From a virus: 39,371 bases of DNA. Position 1 is the first letter of the stretch; each line of letters begins with the position of its first letter. The notes beneath the pieces are model-generated. The model had not been told where the DNA came from, ran no database searches, and saw nothing but the letters and a program-made list of their open reading frames with translations. The DNA lies in the IMG/VR virus record IMGVR_UViG_3300046529_000229, positions 1 through 39,371 of that record. One strand, written 5' to 3'. The translations under genes were made by a program, and so were the position numbers. Of this stretch, positions 12,346 to 19,770 are shown one piece after another.

Positions 12346-12738
12346 TTAAAGGGTGATGCCAAGGTCGTTAATTGCCCACGCACGAACACGTTCGATTAGC
12401 TCGCTGAATTCGCCAACGTTCAAATCGGTCGTGCTCATGCTGCGATCCAGCCGCGTGCCGTCAGGCAGCGTTACTTCTTCGATGCCGATGAACCGGCGTT
12501 TCACATGGTCTTTCCAGACCTCTGCGTCATACTGCTTTCCGTCGATTACAGCGCTCTCCGCGATCTCGTTGATAAGCGCATGCAGGAGCCTATTCTGGTC
12601 GCCTGTGCGCTTCGCCTTATAGACTTCGATCGTCACTACCAGCGGCTTCTTTGCGGCCGCCTGATGGCCTGCATTCGCCTTGATGAACTCGATCATTTTC
12701 TTGGCGTGCTCAGGATCGCGGAGAATGAACGTGCGCAT
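12346..12738 (-). CDS. ninB: NinB/Orf-family recombination mediator
   Basis: 130 residues. The stretch YKAKRTGDQNRLLHALINEIAE, followed by KQYDAEVWKDHVKRRFIGIEEVTLPDG and RSMSTTDLNVGEFSELIERVRAWA, is diagnostic for the NinB family (lambda Orf). Lambda Orf binds single-stranded DNA and helps load recombinases, replacing host RecFOR. Its start overlaps the YqaJ stop by one base, so it is translated with the exonuclease and RecT. Length equals the usual ~130-145 residues. Confidence 0.88.
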   Translation of the reverse strand: MRTFILRDPEHAKKMIEFIKANAGHQAAAKKPLVVTIEVYKAKRTGDQNRLLHALINEIAESAVIDGKQYDAEVWKDHVKRRFIGIEEVTLPDGTRLDRSMSTTDLNVGEFSELIERVRAWAINDLGITL

Positions 12739-13418
12739 CAGGCAGCCTTCTTTTCCAGTTCGGCGATCATGGCTTGAACTTCCTTTTCGAACTGGAGCAA
12801 GCTGGGAAGCAACACACCATTGATATATGCGTCGTCTCGCTCAATCCGCTGGTGATAGAGCCGGAAGCGCTCGGCGACGCGCGGATCATATGAGACGAAC
12901 TCCCACCATTTACGGCCGGTGACGAGCATGCAGCCCTGTACCTGCGGCTTGTGCTCGTCGGGCATACCGCAGAGCCAAGTGTTGATGTGCACGGCTTCAT
13001 CCATCGGGCATTTCGACTCATAGCCGCCGTCTGTGCCGATCAGCGCGTCAGGAGAGCATCCAATGAACGGATAGTCAGGATGCGTCACGAACTCGGCGGG
13101 CGCAACGATATACCCGGTCTCAAGTTCGAATGCCTCTTTGGCGAACGATTCGACATCCGTTCCCCAGCGCGTCGCATAGCCGCCTACCTCATGTGTCGGC
13201 GCAGCGGACAGCCGCTCGAATACGATCTCGCGCATGTATTTGTTGCGCACGGCGGATGATGTCGGAAGCTTCGGTTGACCTTTGCGCGGCCCCGATTTGA
13301 AAACTGCACCTGGTTCGGGCTGCGTAATGTCGATCGCATCCGAAAATCGAGACCCGGTAATTTTGCCGGCGCGTGCGAGACGCCATTCGTCGGTGCGCTG
13401 CTCGATCAGGTCATTCAT
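12738..13418 (-). CDS. YqaJ-type viral exonuclease
   Basis: 226 residues from ATG 13418 (an ATG at 13421 is also possible); GGGAG lies 6 bases before 13418. The N-terminus QRTDEWRLARAGKITGSRFSDAI is the YqaJ recombinase signature. The PD-(D/E)XK core is visible as Asp124 in GCSPDAL and Glu134/Lys136 in YESKCP. These enzymes are lambda Exo-like 5'-3' double-strand exonucleases that make single-stranded tails for a RecT/Bet annealing partner, here encoded immediately upstream with an 8-bp overlap. Together with NinB this is a complete Red-like module. Confidence 0.92.
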   Translation of the reverse strand: MNDLIEQRTDEWRLARAGKITGSRFSDAIDITQPEPGAVFKSGPRKGQPKLPTSSAVRNKYMREIVFERLSAAPTHEVGGYATRWGTDVESFAKEAFELETGYIVAPAEFVTHPDYPFIGCSPDALIGTDGGYESKCPMDEAVHINTWLCGMPDEHKPQVQGCMLVTGRKWWEFVSYDPRVAERFRLYHQRIERDDAYINGVLLPSLLQFEKEVQAMIAELEKKAA

Positions 13419-14232
13419 CATCGGCTCCCGGTTGGCCTTCGTCGGTTTCTGCGCTCGATTCTTCAGTGGCCGGCGACGTTTCTCCGACTGCTGCAATCTC
13501 TTGCAGTCGCGTGAGTTCTGACCGGCCGATCGCTTTACGATCTTCCTTCGTCAGTTTTCCCCAGGAATCCGAAAGAGCATCTGAGCCGTAGTCGCTGGCG
13601 ACCGCTTCGAGATCCAATATCAGGTTCGTGAGGCGATCGTCGCGCTCGGCAGGCTGCGGCAGAGCTGCCGCCGCAATCGCCGTCGCCGTCTTCGGCGTGA
13701 TGTCGCGCTCCAGTGGCTGATAATCCATCACCTCTTCGGCAATCGGGATACCCTTCAGCACATCGGCGAACTTGTCGCGCAAGGCAAAGGCGCGGGCGCG
13801 CAGTTTCTTCATGCGCTTCGGGTATTGCGACCACGGTCCCTGCTTCCCTATCAGACCGGCCTTTTTCGCATCGTCGTCGGAGAACGTCTGCACATGCTCA
13901 TCATCGCCGCGGCGCTTCACGCGACAGACAGCAACGCCGTTTTCCTCGGTCTCACGTACGTATTCGCAGACCGGCGAGGCGAGCACCAGAGCCAGCACAG
14001 CGTCCCCCCAGAGTGAGGGACGACCGTTGATAACCGCGATGTTCTGCAACGCCTGCATGGGCTTCAAACCGAGTTCCATGCCCCATTGAATGGCGACGAG
14101 CACGTTACCCGGCTTGCCCTTGAAATCCTTCGGGACTAGTTCACTGTCGGCGAGGTAGTCGGCAAATCTCAGAGCCTCATCCATCGAGCGCGGCGACAGG
14201 TCAAACGATTGTGTTTCTACGATATTGCTCAT
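13411..14232 (-). CDS. recT: RecT-family single-strand annealing protein
   Basis: 273 residues. The central block LVPKDFKGKPGNVLVAIQWGMELGLKPMQALQNIAVINGRPSLWGDAVLALV, then GPWSQYPKRMKKLRARAFALRDKFADVLKG, is the RecT annealing domain (residues ~30-170). The C-terminal third is variable and ends in an acidic Glu/Asp tail, typical for SSB or partner contact. It anneals complementary single strands produced by the YqaJ exonuclease encoded next to it. GGAGAAATC precedes the ATG. Expected use: replication-associated recombination and genome circularisation or concatemer formation. Confidence 0.9.
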   Translation of the reverse strand: MSNIVETQSFDLSPRSMDEALRFADYLADSELVPKDFKGKPGNVLVAIQWGMELGLKPMQALQNIAVINGRPSLWGDAVLALVLASPVCEYVRETEENGVAVCRVKRRGDDEHVQTFSDDDAKKAGLIGKQGPWSQYPKRMKKLRARAFALRDKFADVLKGIPIAEEVMDYQPLERDITPKTATAIAAAALPQPAERDDRLTNLILDLEAVASDYGSDALSDSWGKLTKEDRKAIGRSELTRLQEIAAVGETSPATEESSAETDEGQPGADDE

Positions 14233-15675: not shown

Positions 15676-15975
15676 TCACTCTCCCGCGTAAGGGATGAAC
15701 TTGGCTTTCTGGTACTGACGCATCTCGCTTTGCGGATACGGCTGAAAGTTGTCGACCGGCGATGCACGCAGATACCAGTCGCCGTAAGAGCTGCCGTTGC
15801 CGCCGCTCGAGCTGCTGCCCGCCGCTGATGCGCTCGACGAGCCACCGAATGCGCCGGCCGCAGCTCCGACAGCACCGTTATTGCCACCGCCGTGGTGGCC
15901 GTGATTGGCCGATGCGGTGGATGCGTGAGCCGATGTGGCCAGCGCGAGAAGAAGGATTGCGAGAACTGATTTCAT
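15676..15975 (-). CDS. Secreted His/Gly/Ser-rich protein, first gene after PL
   Basis: 99 residues from ATG 15975 with GAGG upstream. A clear signal peptide, MKSVLAILLLALATSAHA, ends in AHA|S. The mature part starts STASANHGHHGGGNNGA, continues as a low-complexity Gly/Ser/Ala stretch, and ends in a polar, Tyr-rich segment (WYLRASPVDNFQPYPQ). There is no lipobox. As the first gene behind PL it would be the earliest leftward product, exported to the periplasm. No homologous function is known to me; roles could include superinfection exclusion or metal binding (His cluster), both speculative. Confidence 0.7.
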   Translation of the reverse strand: MKSVLAILLLALATSAHASTASANHGHHGGGNNGAVGAAAGAFGGSSSASAAGSSSSGGNGSSYGDWYLRASPVDNFQPYPQSEMRQYQKAKFIPYAGE

Positions 15976-16015: not shown

Positions 16016-16044
16016 ATCTTAGGCGCGGCTAAAGTCGCCGTCAA
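16016..16044 (-). promoter_or_regulatory. Promoter PL
   Basis: On the minus strand, -35 TTGACG (16044-16039), a 17-base spacer and -10 TAAGAT (16021-16016). It points at the leftward operon starting at 15975. Operator OL1 overlaps the spacer and the first bases of the -10. Confidence 0.85.
16019..16033. promoter_or_regulatory. Operator OL1
   Basis: TTAGGCGCGGCTAAA fits the 15-bp consensus TTAG-N6-CTAAA, an inverted repeat TTAG/CTAA. It overlaps the PL spacer and -10, so bound repressor would block RNA polymerase. Confidence 0.85.
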
Positions 16045-16052
16045 GAACTATT

Positions 16053-16067
16053 TTAGGCCAAGCTAAA
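16053..16067. promoter_or_regulatory. Operator OL2
   Basis: TTAGGCCAAGCTAAA fits the consensus exactly. Its centre is 34 bp from OL1, upstream of the PL -35. A half-site TTAGGC follows at 16071-16076. Confidence 0.8.
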
Positions 16068-16080
16068 CTTTTAGGCGAAC

Positions 16081-16103
16081 AAAAAGCCCGCGCGCGGCGG
16101 GCT
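16081..16103 (-). terminator. Intrinsic terminator of the cI operon
   Basis: On the minus strand, AGCCCGC / GCGGGCT form a 7-bp GC-rich stem around a 5-base loop, followed by TTTTGTT. It sits after the 62-residue ORF and before OL/PL, so it separates repressor transcription from the PL operon. Confidence 0.85.
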
Positions 16104-16115
16104 GTCGGGTGACGG

Positions 16116-16307
16116 TTACTGGTGGGGGGAGACTTCGCGGAGCAGTTCAGCGGCCATCTGGAGGCACTGTGCGAGCCTCCGTATGGCTGATATGTCGGTG
16201 GTCTGTTCGGGCTTGCTGGGGTACGGAATACGGCTCTTTAATTCTTTTCCTCGGGCAATCGGTATTACGGTCGTTACGGTCGTTTCTAGTTCGGCAGGCG
16301 CATTCAC
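16116..16307 (-). CDS. Small protein downstream of cI (GTG start)
   Basis: 63 residues from GTG 16307, preceded by GAGGGGG. The sequence is polar: MNAPAELETTVTTVIPIARG, then KELKSRIPYPSKPEQTTDISAIRRLAQCLQMAAELLREV, ending in a likely amphipathic helix. It lies 98 bases downstream of cI and upstream of an intrinsic terminator. It would therefore be expressed with the repressor in the lysogen, the place where lambda carries rexAB. Function unknown; a lysogeny-maintenance or exclusion role is only suggested by location. Confidence 0.6.
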   Translation of the reverse strand: MNAPAELETTVTTVIPIARGKELKSRIPYPSKPEQTTDISAIRRLAQCLQMAAELLREVSPHQ

Positions 16308-16405
16308 GGTACCCCCTCATGGGCAATTATTCGAAAACGCATTCTTTCTACAGGTGAATGCGTCGGCAAATATTGCGCTGCTATTAAACGTTTGCTAAGC
16401 AGGGT

Positions 16406-16795
16406 TTACCCGTTATTTACAATTTGTTTCGAGCCTTTGTTTTCGGGCCTCAGCAGCCGGTTGATGAAATAAATTGCGTCGTCACGGACTGGACCTTTCG
16501 TCTGATCTATAGATATCAGTGCGGTAATAATTTCCCGCATTTCCGGGCTCAAATTTCCCTGATCAGCGGGCCGCATTGGCCCCTCTCTAAATAGCAACCA
16601 TTCAGGCCTGATTTTAAGCAACTGGCATACGCGGATTGCATTGTCAGCGGTCAGGTTGCGAGCTGGCGTGATGGTTCCGGCCCCGATCCATGCAGAAACG
16701 GAGGGCGCACTGACGCCCAGCGCGGTCGCCAGTGCGTTCGGGGTGTAGTCGCTCTCAGCGAGCGCGGCGGCTAGTCGTGTGTTCCAGGTATCCAT
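16406..16795 (-). CDS. cI: CI-type repressor (short, HTH only)
   Basis: 129 residues. The N-terminal 65 residues form an XRE/lambda-repressor HTH domain: RLAAALAESDYTPNALATALGVSAPSVSAWIGAGTITPARNLTADNAIRVCQLLKIRPEWLLFREGP, with the recognition helix near VSAPSVSAWI. The C-terminal ~60 residues (LSPEMREIITALISIDQTKG..FINRLLRPE) are helical and do not contain the S24/LexA-type autoprotease domain of lambda CI. It is divergent from cro, and its ATG overlaps operator OR3, which implies autoregulation. It should keep PL and PR silent in the lysogen. Without a protease domain, induction may not use classical RecA-stimulated self-cleavage. Confidence 0.88.
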   Translation of the reverse strand: MDTWNTRLAAALAESDYTPNALATALGVSAPSVSAWIGAGTITPARNLTADNAIRVCQLLKIRPEWLLFREGPMRPADQGNLSPEMREIITALISIDQTKGPVRDDAIYFINRLLRPENKGSKQIVNNG

Positions 16796-16809
16796 TAGTT
16801 AAGCCTAAA
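16795..16809. promoter_or_regulatory. Operator OR3 (overlaps cI start)
   Basis: TTAGTTAAGCCTAAA fits TTAG-N6-CTAAA. Its first base is the first base of the cI ATG on the minus strand, so occupancy would block cI expression. Confidence 0.8.
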
Positions 16810-16819
16810 TTAATTTGTT

Positions 16820-16834
16820 TTAGCCGGACCTTGC
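16820..16834. promoter_or_regulatory. Operator OR2 (degenerate)
   Basis: TTAGCCGGACCTTGC keeps the left half TTAG and the CT of the right half. Its centre is 25 bp from OR3 and 23 bp from OR1, the even spacing expected for a three-operator array. Confidence 0.5.
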
Positions 16835-16859
16835 GTTCTGTCTTAGGTCGGCCTAAACT
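16831..16859 (+). promoter_or_regulatory. Promoter PR
   Basis: -35 TTGCGT (16831-16836), 17-base spacer, -10 TAAACT (16854-16859), directed at cro. OR1 overlaps the spacer and the -10 in the same way OL1 overlaps PL. Confidence 0.82.
16843..16857. promoter_or_regulatory. Operator OR1
   Basis: TTAGGTCGGCCTAAA fits TTAG-N6-CTAAA and covers the last part of the PR spacer and the first four bases of the -10. Confidence 0.85.
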
Positions 16860-16887: not shown

Positions 16888-17103
16888 ATGCACATCGATC
16901 CGAACGTTGTTATCGACCGCCTTGGCGGCACCGGCGCCGTCGCTCGCATCTGCGAGATCGAGGCTGCATCCGTCTCGGGCTGGCGCACGAGCAAGAACGG
17001 CATCCCGAAACCCTGGGTGAAGTTCCTGCGCCTTGCCTATCCGGAAGCGTTCCTTCCTGTTCACGCTGAACCCAAAGTTCGGCGCGAGCCCACTACTGCA
17101 TAA
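16888..17103 (+). CDS. cro: Cro-like regulator
   Basis: 71 residues. DRLGGTGAVARICEIEAASVSGWRTSKNGIPKPWVKFLRLAYPEAF is the Cro/YdaS-type helix-turn-helix found opposite CI in many phages of Gram-negative hosts. AAGGA lies 9 bases before the ATG. It is the first gene behind PR. It would bind the same TTAG-N6-CTAAA operators, favouring OR3 if it acts like lambda Cro. Confidence 0.85.
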   Translation: MHIDPNVVIDRLGGTGAVARICEIEAASVSGWRTSKNGIPKPWVKFLRLAYPEAFLPVHAEPKVRREPTTA

Positions 17104-17134: not shown

Positions 17135-17362
17135 ATGTCTCGGCGTGCTGAATTCCGCAACGAAGTCAAAACGCGTCTGCGTGATGAGGTCTACACGAGG
17201 CTTCAGGATTTCAAACAGCTCAACTTCATCGACAGCGATTCGGCCGCTCTGGCTCGCCTGGCTGAAATGCTGTTGTGTGGAATTGTCCCTGCGCAGCGAA
17301 TAGGCGTCAGTGACGATTCGGACCATCAGTCCCCACGAGGGACGCTTCGGGATGCTGCATGA
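17135..17362 (+). CDS. Small early protein, possible ribbon-helix-helix
   Basis: 75 residues with AGGGGA upstream of the ATG. MSRRAEFRNEVKTRLRDEVY, followed by TRLQDFKQLNFIDSDSAALARLAEMLLCG, has the beta-strand then two-helix rhythm of Arc/MetJ-type (CopG) proteins. It occupies the position of cII in lambda but does not look like CII. Its stop overlaps the next start (ATGA). DNA binding is inference from the pattern. Confidence 0.65.
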   Translation: MSRRAEFRNEVKTRLRDEVYTRLQDFKQLNFIDSDSAALARLAEMLLCGIVPAQRIGVSDDSDHQSPRGTLRDAA

Positions 17363-17553
17363 CCGACCAAAACAAGCAGTACACGGTGGAAATTCCCGCG
17401 GGGGAAGCAGAGTTGATCGAGCAGGGCGCAGCAGAGCAGGGTGTTTCCACCCCTGACTTCATGGTGTATTGCGTCCGCGCCTTCTCGTTCGGCATCAATT
17501 ACGCAATTCGCATGCTGCCCAAGCAGGGACAACCTGGGCCGCGGGAGGACTGA
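17359..17553 (+). CDS. Small early protein, RHH-like
   Basis: 64 residues. QYTVEIPAGEAELIEQGAAE, followed by QGVSTPDFMVYCVRAFSFG, is a short strand plus two helices, again reminiscent of ribbon-helix-helix regulators or toxin-antitoxin DNA-binding parts. No toxin partner is next to it. It is coupled by ATGA to the gene before it. Confidence 0.6.
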   Translation: MTDQNKQYTVEIPAGEAELIEQGAAEQGVSTPDFMVYCVRAFSFGINYAIRMLPKQGQPGPRED

Positions 17554-17554
17554 C

Positions 17555-17629
17555 ATGGATCTGTTCTGTGCAGGGTGGATGATGGGCGTGATAGCGCTCT
17601 GTGCTGTCGGATGCTGGAGATCAGTATGA
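17555..17629 (+). CDS. 24-residue hydrophobic peptide
   Basis: MDLFCAGWMMGVIALCAVGC then WRSV. A strong SD, GGGAGG, lies 6-11 bases upstream, and the stop overlaps the replication-initiator start (ATGA). It is nearly a single membrane helix. It may simply couple translation to the next gene or be a real membrane peptide. Confidence 0.5.
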   Translation: MDLFCAGWMMGVIALCAVGCWRSV

Positions 17630-18288
17630 AGTTGCGCATCAAAAACTGGGCGAAATTCCAGCATTTCAAAGACCGTCGGCCGCCATGGGTGAAGCTCTAT
17701 CGCGACATTCTCGACGATCGCGAATGGCATCGGCTCGAACCATCTGCAGCAAAAGTGCTGGTGATGCTCTGGCTAATCGCCAGCGAATCAGATGGATATC
17801 TTCCTGATTCCGATGAATTGGCCTTCAGACTTCGAATCACAGAAACGGAAGTTATCGAGGCGATATCAGGGCTCGGATGGTGGCTAGAACAAGTTGATGA
17901 CACAGGCGATATCGCATGCGATGACGACCCGATATCAGATGGATATCAAGAGGATCGCCTAGAGAAGAGAAGAGAAGAGACAGAGACAGAGGAAGAGACA
18001 GAGAAGAAACCTCGCGCTGCGCGCTTCGACCCGCAAGCGTGTCTCGAATCTTGGGGAACGGAGTCAGGGGTCGCTCGTGACTGGCTAGCCGTTCGCAAGG
18101 CCAAGCGCCTGACGGCGACTGAAACCGCATTGAACGGCGTGAAGGCTGAGGCCGACAAGGCTGGTGTATCGATGGATGAAGCCTTGCGCACTTGCTGTCT
18201 GCGCGGCTGGGGTGGCTTCAAGGCTGATTGGCTGACGAACCAAGCAAACGGCCGCATGAACGGCCACTCCGACAACCCATTCGCCTAA
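17626..18288 (+). CDS. Replication initiator (lambda O-like)
   Basis: 220 residues. The N-terminus MKLRIKNWAKFQHFKDRRPP, then WVKLYRDILDDREWHRLEPSAAKVLVMLWLIASE, is the winged-helix origin-binding domain of phage initiators. A highly charged linker (EKRREETETEEETEKK) follows, then a C-terminal helicase-contact-like part ending RGWGGFKADWL. It should bind the phage origin and recruit the helicase encoded two genes on. Within its coding sequence are five GATATC-centred repeats followed by a purine-only-like tract, matching the way lambda places ori inside O. Start chosen by the GGAG 8 bases upstream and the ATGA overlap. Confidence 0.8.
   Translation: MKLRIKNWAKFQHFKDRRPPWVKLYRDILDDREWHRLEPSAAKVLVMLWLIASESDGYLPDSDELAFRLRITETEVIEAISGLGWWLEQVDDTGDIACDDDPISDGYQEDRLEKRREETETEEETEKKPRAARFDPQACLESWGTESGVARDWLAVRKAKRLTATETALNGVKAEADKAGVSMDEALRTCCLRGWGGFKADWLTNQANGRMNGHSDNPFA
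17787..18010. other. Candidate replication origin (iterons plus purine tract)
   Basis: GATATC occurs five times in 153 bases (17795, 17862, 17908, 17931, 17942), and the 14-mer ATCAGATGGATATC occurs twice (17787-17800, 17934-17947). A strongly purine-biased run (17961-18010) built from AGAGA/CAGAG units follows directly. Iterons next to a strand-asymmetric tract inside the initiator gene is the lambdoid origin arrangement. Confidence 0.6.
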
Positions 18289-18292
18289 CGCC

Positions 18293-18808
18293 ATGAGCCA
18301 ACTTCCTCGCAATGCCGAAAGCCTGATCGCCATGCGCACGGCTGAGAAACCGTCGGTGCCTGATCTGCCGATCCTGATCTCGCTGGTTGGCTCGCTCGGG
18401 TTCAACAACCTGACGCTGTACGCCAACGCGGGCACGGCCTACGACTGGCATCTGATCGCCGGTCTTGAGGTCGAAGTGCTCGCCTCCGCTGCTACGCCGT
18501 TTAGCCAGCTCCTGAGCCTGCTGGCTGCCATTGCTGCCGCCGTGCCGAAGCACATGGTCCTGACGTTCGTCGACGGCCCGCGCATCGATTGCGGCGAAAT
18601 GCGTACGGTTACCGACTTCGCCCTGTTCGACTGGTTCCCGATGACCATCACGCCAATCAACGCTGCGCCTGCTGCGCACATCGAGGCGTGGAACTCAGGC
18701 CGGATCATCGAACAGAAGCTCTGGAAAGCGCTCGGGAAGGAACTCCCGATCCCCTACGAAAAAGCCATGGACCTCGTGGTCCAGATCGCCAAGGAGAACC
18801 AGCAGTGA
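18293..18808 (+). CDS. Early protein of unknown function between initiator and helicase
   Basis: 171 residues. The sequence is mixed alpha/beta with several hydrophobic strands (DLPILISLVGSLGFNNLTLY, HMVLTFVDG) and a helical C-terminus (IIEQKLWKALGKELPIPYEKAMDLVVQIAKEN). No signal peptide. Position between initiator and helicase might suggest a helicase loader, but it lacks Walker motifs and I do not recognise it. The stop overlaps the helicase GTG start by 4 bases. Confidence 0.6.
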   Translation: MSQLPRNAESLIAMRTAEKPSVPDLPILISLVGSLGFNNLTLYANAGTAYDWHLIAGLEVEVLASAATPFSQLLSLLAAIAAAVPKHMVLTFVDGPRIDCGEMRTVTDFALFDWFPMTITPINAAPAAHIEAWNSGRIIEQKLWKALGKELPIPYEKAMDLVVQIAKENQQ

Positions 18809-19770
18809 AAATGATCCCGGATAACGTGGATTGGCAAGCCTACGTCAGCGACGAGAACGACGGCCGCGCAGACGTACGGCCCGCTTCAGAATTCGTCGAC
18901 GAACTGATTGAGCGCCTGCACGGCGCCAAGTCGCAGGAGATCTATGGCCTGCTGACGCCGTGGGCTTCAATCGGTCAAGACCTCGCGTTCCGCCCTGGCG
19001 AAGTGAGCCTGTGGGGCGGCGTCAACGGTCACGGCAAGTCCGCGGTGCTTGGTTACGTGATGCTTCACGGCATGGCAACCGGCGAGCGCGTATGCATTGC
19101 TTCGATGGAAATGAAGCCGATGGACACGCTCGATCGCCTCGCACGTCAGGCCGCATGCGCCGAGAAAACCCCCGCGCAATACCTCAGCAACTTTGGCCGG
19201 TGGACCGACGATCGTCTGTGGATCTACAACCACGTCGGCACGGTCAAGCGCGATCGCATGCTCGCCGTCGCACGCTACTGCCGGCGCGAGCTGGGCGTGA
19301 AGCACATGGTGATCGACAGCCTGCTCAAGTGCGGCATCGCTCCGGACGACTACGCCGGCCAGAAAAACTTCGTCGACGAACTCTGCTCGCTGGCACGCGA
19401 TACCGATCTGCACATTCACCTCGTGCATCACGCGCGCAAAAGCGAGAAGGAATCGAACGTGCCAGACAAGTTCGACCTGAAGGGCGCAGGGGAAATCACC
19501 GACCTCGTCGACAACGTGCTCATCGTGCATCGCAACAAGGCGAAAGAGGCTGATCTGCGCAAAGACATGACGCCTGAGAAACGCGAGGTCGTGCTTGCAC
19601 AGGCCGACACCGTGCTGATCTGCGCCAAGCAGCGCCACTACACATGGGAAGGCAACCTGAAGCTGTGGTTCGACCCGGCAAGCCTTCAGTTCCGCGATCA
19701 GCGTCAGCACGGCGCGACAGCACTCGACCTTGGCAAGAGCCAATGGATGCCGGTATGGGGGCGAGCATGA
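18805..19770 (+). CDS. Replicative DNA helicase, RecA-like DnaB/T7 gp4 type
   Basis: 321 residues from GTG 18805, which has AAGGAG 8 bases upstream and a GTGA overlap with the gene before; the first ATG is at 18811. Walker A GGVNGHGKS (Lys78), the MEMKPMDTLDRLARQ motif after strand 2, Walker B HMVIDS (Asp171), the HLVHHARK sensor-type motif and KGAGEITDLVDNVL are all visible, as in DnaB, T7 gp4 and Twinkle helicase domains. There is no N-terminal primase or zinc domain, so priming would use host DnaG. It unwinds DNA at the fork after loading by the O-like protein. Confidence 0.88.
   Translation: MKMIPDNVDWQAYVSDENDGRADVRPASEFVDELIERLHGAKSQEIYGLLTPWASIGQDLAFRPGEVSLWGGVNGHGKSAVLGYVMLHGMATGERVCIASMEMKPMDTLDRLARQAACAEKTPAQYLSNFGRWTDDRLWIYNHVGTVKRDRMLAVARYCRRELGVKHMVIDSLLKCGIAPDDYAGQKNFVDELCSLARDTDLHIHLVHHARKSEKESNVPDKFDLKGAGEITDLVDNVLIVHRNKAKEADLRKDMTPEKREVVLAQADTVLICAKQRHYTWEGNLKLWFDPASLQFRDQRQHGATALDLGKSQWMPVWGRA

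Follow-up and report, generated by a model that had tools for sequence, protein, structure and literature searches.

A likely P22/DicA-type lambdoid immunity region, with TTAG-N6-CTAA operators, in an IMG/VR virus record

Genes and promoters of the region

The window, meaning the whole stretch of DNA analyzed, is an IMG/VR virus record of 39,371 bases with 60% G+C. Its switch region is organized around two divergent genes, a cI-type repressor gene (16406–16795, minus strand; 129 aa) and a cro-like gene (16888–17103, plus strand; 71 aa). The structure model of CI (pLDDT 83) consists of a helix-turn-helix (HTH) domain followed by two C-terminal helices; when it was compared with the PDB, the P22 c2 repressor–operator complex was the second-best match, with all E-values above 0.001. 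CI matched a PHROG transcriptional repressor family (2.2e-9), and its similarity to phage repressors is weak but consistent, single-protein Pfam matches falling under Pfam's own cut-offs. No S24 peptidase domain was matched in Pfam or NCBIfam. The Cro-like protein weakly resembles YdaS and P22 Cro and matches PHROG 8008, a DNA-binding protein. Within the cI operon, a small conserved ORF (16116–16307, minus strand; 63 aa, GTG start) occupies the position of lambda rex; it has no Pfam, PHROG or NCBIfam match, and the pattern VIPIxRGK ... RRLxQCxxMxAELxREV recurs in most closer relatives. An intrinsic-terminator-like hairpin (16085–16103, minus strand) separates the cI operon from OL and PL, and most relatives carry at this position a hairpin-like, G+C-rich sequence that includes a T run.

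Two promoter-like elements accompany these genes. PR (16831–16859, plus strand) reads TTGCGT (16831–16836), 17 bp, TAAACT (16854–16859), and PL (16016–16044, minus strand) reads TTGACG (16044–16039), 17 bp, TAAGAT (16021–16016). In closer relatives PR takes the form TTGCAT or TTGCGT, 17–18 bp, TAAAAT, compared with which the −10 element of the window is weaker. The genes expected to be read leftward from PL (12346–14232, minus strand) encode NinB/Orf-like, RecE-like exonuclease and RecT-like annealing proteins, and those expected from PR (17575–19770, plus strand) encode an O-like replication protein and a DnaB-like helicase. The first ORF past PL (15676–15975, minus strand) encodes a 99-aa protein that seems to carry a signal peptide, has a body rich in Gly, Ser and His, and returned no family match. 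Directly after cro lie two small plus-strand ORFs (17135–17362 and 17359–17553), the second of which marginally matches an Arc-like repressor (PHROG 582, E = 0.048); both are possibly regulators in the CII position.

Operator array and its conservation

Exact matches to TTAGN6CTAAA occur at 16019, 16053, 16795 and 16843, with none further in the window; the 16053 site also matches on the opposite strand, as 16052. Shuffled windows contained a mean of 0.01 matches to this motif (maximum 1), and 20,000 simulated sequences matched in composition to the 844-bp region itself contained a mean of 0.0125 matches to TTAGN6CTAA (maximum 2), versus four seen. A weight matrix derived from the four sites scored them at 18–25 and all other positions at about 10 or less; the exceptions are the half-site at 16071 and a match that overlaps the 16795 site. 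Across the window it revealed no additional strong site, the best extra being that half-site. The half-sites of the window read TTAGG, TTAGC or TTAGT.

The sites are placed in register with the promoters and with cI. On the right, OR1 (16843–16856; TTAGGTCGGCCTAA) overlaps the PR −10, which starts within it. The degenerate OR2 (16820–16833; TTAGCCGGACCTTG) reads CAAG-N6-CTAA in the cI direction and includes the PR −35 TTGC in its right end, and OR3 (16795–16808; TTAGTTAAGCCTAA) shares a single base with cI, its final base in the cI sense being the A of the ATG. The starts of these sites (16795, 16820 and 16843) are separated by 25 and 23 bp. On the left, OL1 (16019–16032; TTAGGCGCGGCTAA) overlaps the PL −10, which likewise starts within it, and OL2 (16053–16066; TTAGGCCAAGCTAA) lies upstream of the PL −35, 34 bp from OL1. 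The earlier note had claimed four exact sites and one degenerate site at PL and PR, 17-bp spacers in both promoters, −10 elements starting within operators, an OR3 overlapping the cI start codon and right operators 23–25 bp apart, and the sequence agrees on each of these points. A possible OL3, present as a half-site only (16071–16084; TTAGGCGAACAAAA), is located 18 bp past OL2 and matches the third P22 left site in place. This degenerate third left site is absent from the earlier note; considered as OL3, it lacks conservation in the window's own relatives.

OR3 may also contain the promoter for cI. A putative PRM −10 (16802–16807, minus strand), TAGGCT, coincides with OR3 positions 2–7, and all 19 loci comparable in register have T at position 7, counted in the cI direction. 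This base is not demanded by the palindrome, and OR1 has mostly C or G there. In P22, operator positions 2–7 of OR3 read TAAGAT and fall in the RM promoter of the annotation, which has the c2 transcript begin 4 nt ahead of the ATG. For the window we infer a cI transcript start at ~16795/16796, at the ATG or 1 nt before it. With the putative PRM −10 placed within OR3, the cI message is predicted to begin at its own AUG and would be leaderless, as are the messages of lambda cI and PaaR2. In an alternative reading, the invariant T of OR3 would be there for Cro and not for RNA polymerase.

Relatives of CI were found in viral contigs and in Pandoraea iniqua LMG 31009, and a protein search of the bacterial family of that species gave matches in 19 of 398 genomes. 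In about 20 distinct prophages, Burkholderiaceae included, the same array recurs with a fixed spacing to the start codon of cI. Among 21 compared loci, many with CI proteins less than 60% identical to that of the window, the OR2–OR3 interval is 25 bp in every case and the OR1–OR2 interval 23–25 bp, while in every one of them OR3 stands at −13 relative to the cI start or no more than 3 bp beyond that. OR2 reads CAAG-N6-CTAA or nearly so in the cI direction in 18 of the 21, and its odd half includes the complement of the PR −35 (TTGC or TTGA), which explains the degeneracy of OR2: one half doubles as the −35 element. The left side of the relatives is likewise built from OL2, the PL −35 and an OL1 over the −10, with OL1 and OL2 33–34 bp apart. 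When IMG/VR was searched with a DNA pattern describing nothing but the array, 29 stretches were matched; upon translation of the distinct matches, a CI-type HTH frame begins at the expected ATG in all of them, and a divergent Cro-like frame is present in most, the automatic frame choice having missed a few. A strict array pattern, narrow enough to miss the window itself, matched none of 399 genomes of the order, and a DNA search with the 2-kb region matched no isolated phage.

The window is an IMG/VR contig with no attached host genome, as a decayed immunity region of a defective prophage or a viral fragment might be. Against decay, cI, cro, the promoter elements and the operators are intact, and the adjacent genes for replication, recombination and terminase have open reading frames, which makes a decayed region very improbable. 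The divergent repressor and Cro genes, the shared operators between them, the overlapping PR and a second operator set at the leftward early promoter past cI are the features of a lambdoid switch, and we consider this locus by far most probably a functional immunity region of P22/DicA type.

Relationship to P22, DicA and other prophage switches

Among the known repressors tried, the CI profile scored highest with DicA (46.8 bits), followed by P22 C2 (23.4), YdaS (18.4) and RacR (15.2), with lambda CI below zero. The P22 array has nearly the same geometry as that of the window. Its right operators (31666, 31691 and 31714) are spaced by 25 and 23 bp, equal to the intervals in the window, and its left operators (30895, 30930 and 30949) by 35 and 19 bp, compared with 34 and 18 bp, the third left site of the window being weak. 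Both systems use a 14-bp palindrome with an N4 center and an OR3 adjoining the repressor start, and the putative PRM −10 of the window lies within OR3 as does that of P22; the position of OR3 on the start codon was accordingly dropped as an unusual trait, P22 being nearly identical there. The two differ in half-site (TTAAG in P22, and TTAGG, TTAGC or TTAGT here), in the placement of PR relative to the operators, which is lambda-like in the window, and in the repressor, C2 being a 216-aa protein with a long C-terminal domain as opposed to the 129-aa CI. The array of the window is expected to work like that of P22, though with a different specificity.

The closest characterized repressor is DicA from the Escherichia coli Qin prophage. 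DicA and DicC share with the window a short repressor that has no cleavage domain, a divergent Cro analogue and TTAG-N6-CTAA operators, with one more beyond dicA. The dicC–dicA intergenic region contains TTGTTAGTCATAACTAACAA at −66 and TTTAGCATTAGCTAA at −16 from dicA. In cells, DicA binds the Oc operator TTGTTAGTCATAACTAACAA, of the TTAG-N6-CTAA form, and a single base change in CTAA abolishes this binding, whereas Om and Oa, two further operators proposed from sequence, were not bound (PMC3441716); some sites of such arrays therefore need not be strong. The window carries this operator at the PR of a short repressor, although the inner half-site bases differ (GT in Oc, mostly GG or GC here), the C-terminal parts of the two repressors are unlike, and CI falls outside the NCBIfam DicA family (PRK09706; 21.4 bits against a cut-off of 101).

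Two further prophage switches use related palindromes. The region bound by RacR in the Rac prophage contains three TTAGGC/GCCTAA repeats between the repressor and a Cro-like gene (PMC5700373), and further sites of this type are found on the far side of racR. The Rac palindrome, TTAGGC-N3-GCCTAA, is one base longer than that of the window; RacR starts well downstream of the final site, unlike the window CI, to which it is weakly similar. In CP-933P of E. coli O157:H7, PaaR2 is a short CI analogue (15,081 Da with tag) made from a leaderless message, its palindromes at PR have the half-site GTTTAGTAA, and similar operators occur at PL (PMC8630535). As judged from this description, the GTTTAGTAA half-site likewise yields TTTAG-N6-CTAAA. 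PaaR2/YdaS differs from the window in the inner bases (TAA vs GCC) and in having four evenly spaced inverted repeats.

With lambda, the window shares the order cI–OR–cro, the location of OL and PL past cI, and a PR with its −35 in OR2 and its −10 in OR1. The operator centers lie 6.5, 31.5 and 54.5 bp from the start codon, compared with 19, 42 and 66 bp in lambda, and are thus about 11 bp closer to cI; the window CI bears no detectable similarity to lambda CI and has no S24 domain. The earlier description of the region as lambda-style is therefore apt for its lambdoid cI/cro layout, while the homology of CI and the operator geometry are of the P22/DicA kind.

These comparisons bear on whether the operator defines a specificity private to the phage of the window within a lambda-type region. 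The lambda-like gene order and PR placement would fit such a reading, as would the INPHARED phages, among which CI identity nowhere exceeds 44% (a partial match) and no match covers 80% of the CI length. However, OR1 (TTAGGCCGACCTAA) is letter-identical in six prophages (L009, a Pandoraea iniqua prophage, and L019, L026, L053, L064 and L072), and OR3 (TTAGGCTTAACTAA) is letter-identical in L002, so the operator of the window is not private. The DicA operator is likewise of TTAG-N6-CTAA form, and the array is nearer to P22 than to lambda, leaving a private specificity unlikely. The new immunity specificity predicted by the earlier note is, as worded there, not supported: TTAG-N6-CTAA is already the DicA operator, the half-site TTAGGC/GCCTAA occurs in the RacR-bound region, and identical single sites exist in other prophages.

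A further question is which protein reads the sites. It might be chiefly the Cro-like protein or some host regulator, with CI acting elsewhere: sequence cannot separate CI binding from Cro binding, and in CP-933P one bound intergenic region is shared by PaaR2 and YdaS (PMC8630535). Yet within the window the sites are confined to this region, in many prophages their placement with respect to cI and cro is constant, and DicA, the closest characterized repressor, binds the same motif. In L029, moreover, the CI recognition helix and the operator differ together, the helix reading RPASVTQW instead of the SAPSVSAW of the window type and the operators being TTAAG-N4-CTTAA, the P22 form. IMG/VR, scanned for arrays built of TTAAG sites, gave no match, so this covariation rests on a single locus. 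Binding by another protein in place of CI appears highly unlikely.

From the sites, promoter-like elements, genes and conservation described above, which are read directly from the DNA, we infer binding and site roles as follows. For a P22/DicA-type switch, short CI dimers would bind the TTAGG-N4-CCTAA-type palindromes. At OR1 and OR2 they would silence PR and with it cro and the replication genes, and at OL1 and OL2 they would silence PL and the recombination genes, the combined shut-off maintaining a silent prophage. The Cro-like protein would compete for the CI sites, probably occupying OR3 first, and stop cI expression in lytic growth; occupation of OR3 by either CI or Cro is predicted to turn PRM off.

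Module exchange and mode of induction

To compare close phages carrying the same operator had been proposed in the earlier note as a check on hetero-immunity. At the sequence level, the operator is absent from the five viral contigs nearest by helicase: L079, L080, L081, L082 and L083, whose replicative helicases are 72–86% identical to that of the window, contain no TTAGN6CTAA in the DNA examined. Three of the five (L079, L081 and L083) have other repressors with other upstream sequences and palindromes; L082 yielded no CI-like reading frame, and the DNA beside the helicase in L080 is too short to judge the repressor. An array of the window's class is present in L084, whose helicase is 57% identical. 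By sequence, the immunity module is swapped between phages, as is usual in lambdoids.

Exchange also appears within the repressor. On the same kind of array, the repressor C-terminal part may be of the window type, the Pandoraea type, a longer short form or an S24 peptidase type, the last represented by full-length repressors in L041, L043 and L022 as judged from length and sequence. C-terminal modules thus appear to be exchanged upon a fixed DNA specificity. The window CI, with 129 aa and a model ending in two helices, has no S24 domain with a cleavage site such as characterizes an SOS-cleavable CI, and like DicA it is predicted not to be cleavable in the usual way. For the DicA and Gifsy repressors, an antirepressor relieves repression (PMC10448788). 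No candidate antirepressor gene was identified in the window, and a search for a LexA box, as a pointer to an antirepressor under SOS control, gave none. Given a CI with no self-cleavage domain, induction would probably proceed via an antirepressor or another signal and not by RecA-stimulated cleavage; such a route for the window is our guess.

By itself the region is ordinary, a further P22/DicA-type switch built on a plan known from P22 and the dicA prophage genes. The group of prophage switches to which it belongs seems previously undescribed: literature searches on Burkholderia, Pandoraea, Ralstonia or Pseudomonas phages gave no description of this operator, and, since INPHARED phages include no close CI relative, the class is uncharacterized. 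We tentatively suggest, as a possibility somewhat short of even, that TTAGG-N4-CCTAA marks a widespread, undescribed immunity class, represented for instance in Burkholderiaceae prophages, in which interchangeable C-terminal parts of the repressor go with a fixed array. If so, these phages retain their DNA specificity while altering their mode of induction, and modular repressors on a constant array would form a natural series for following a change of induction signal with DNA specificity kept. The predicted operator code applies to a prophage group, Burkholderia relatives included, for which no characterized immunity system was found here, and it would allow phages to be sorted by sequence into likely immunity groups.
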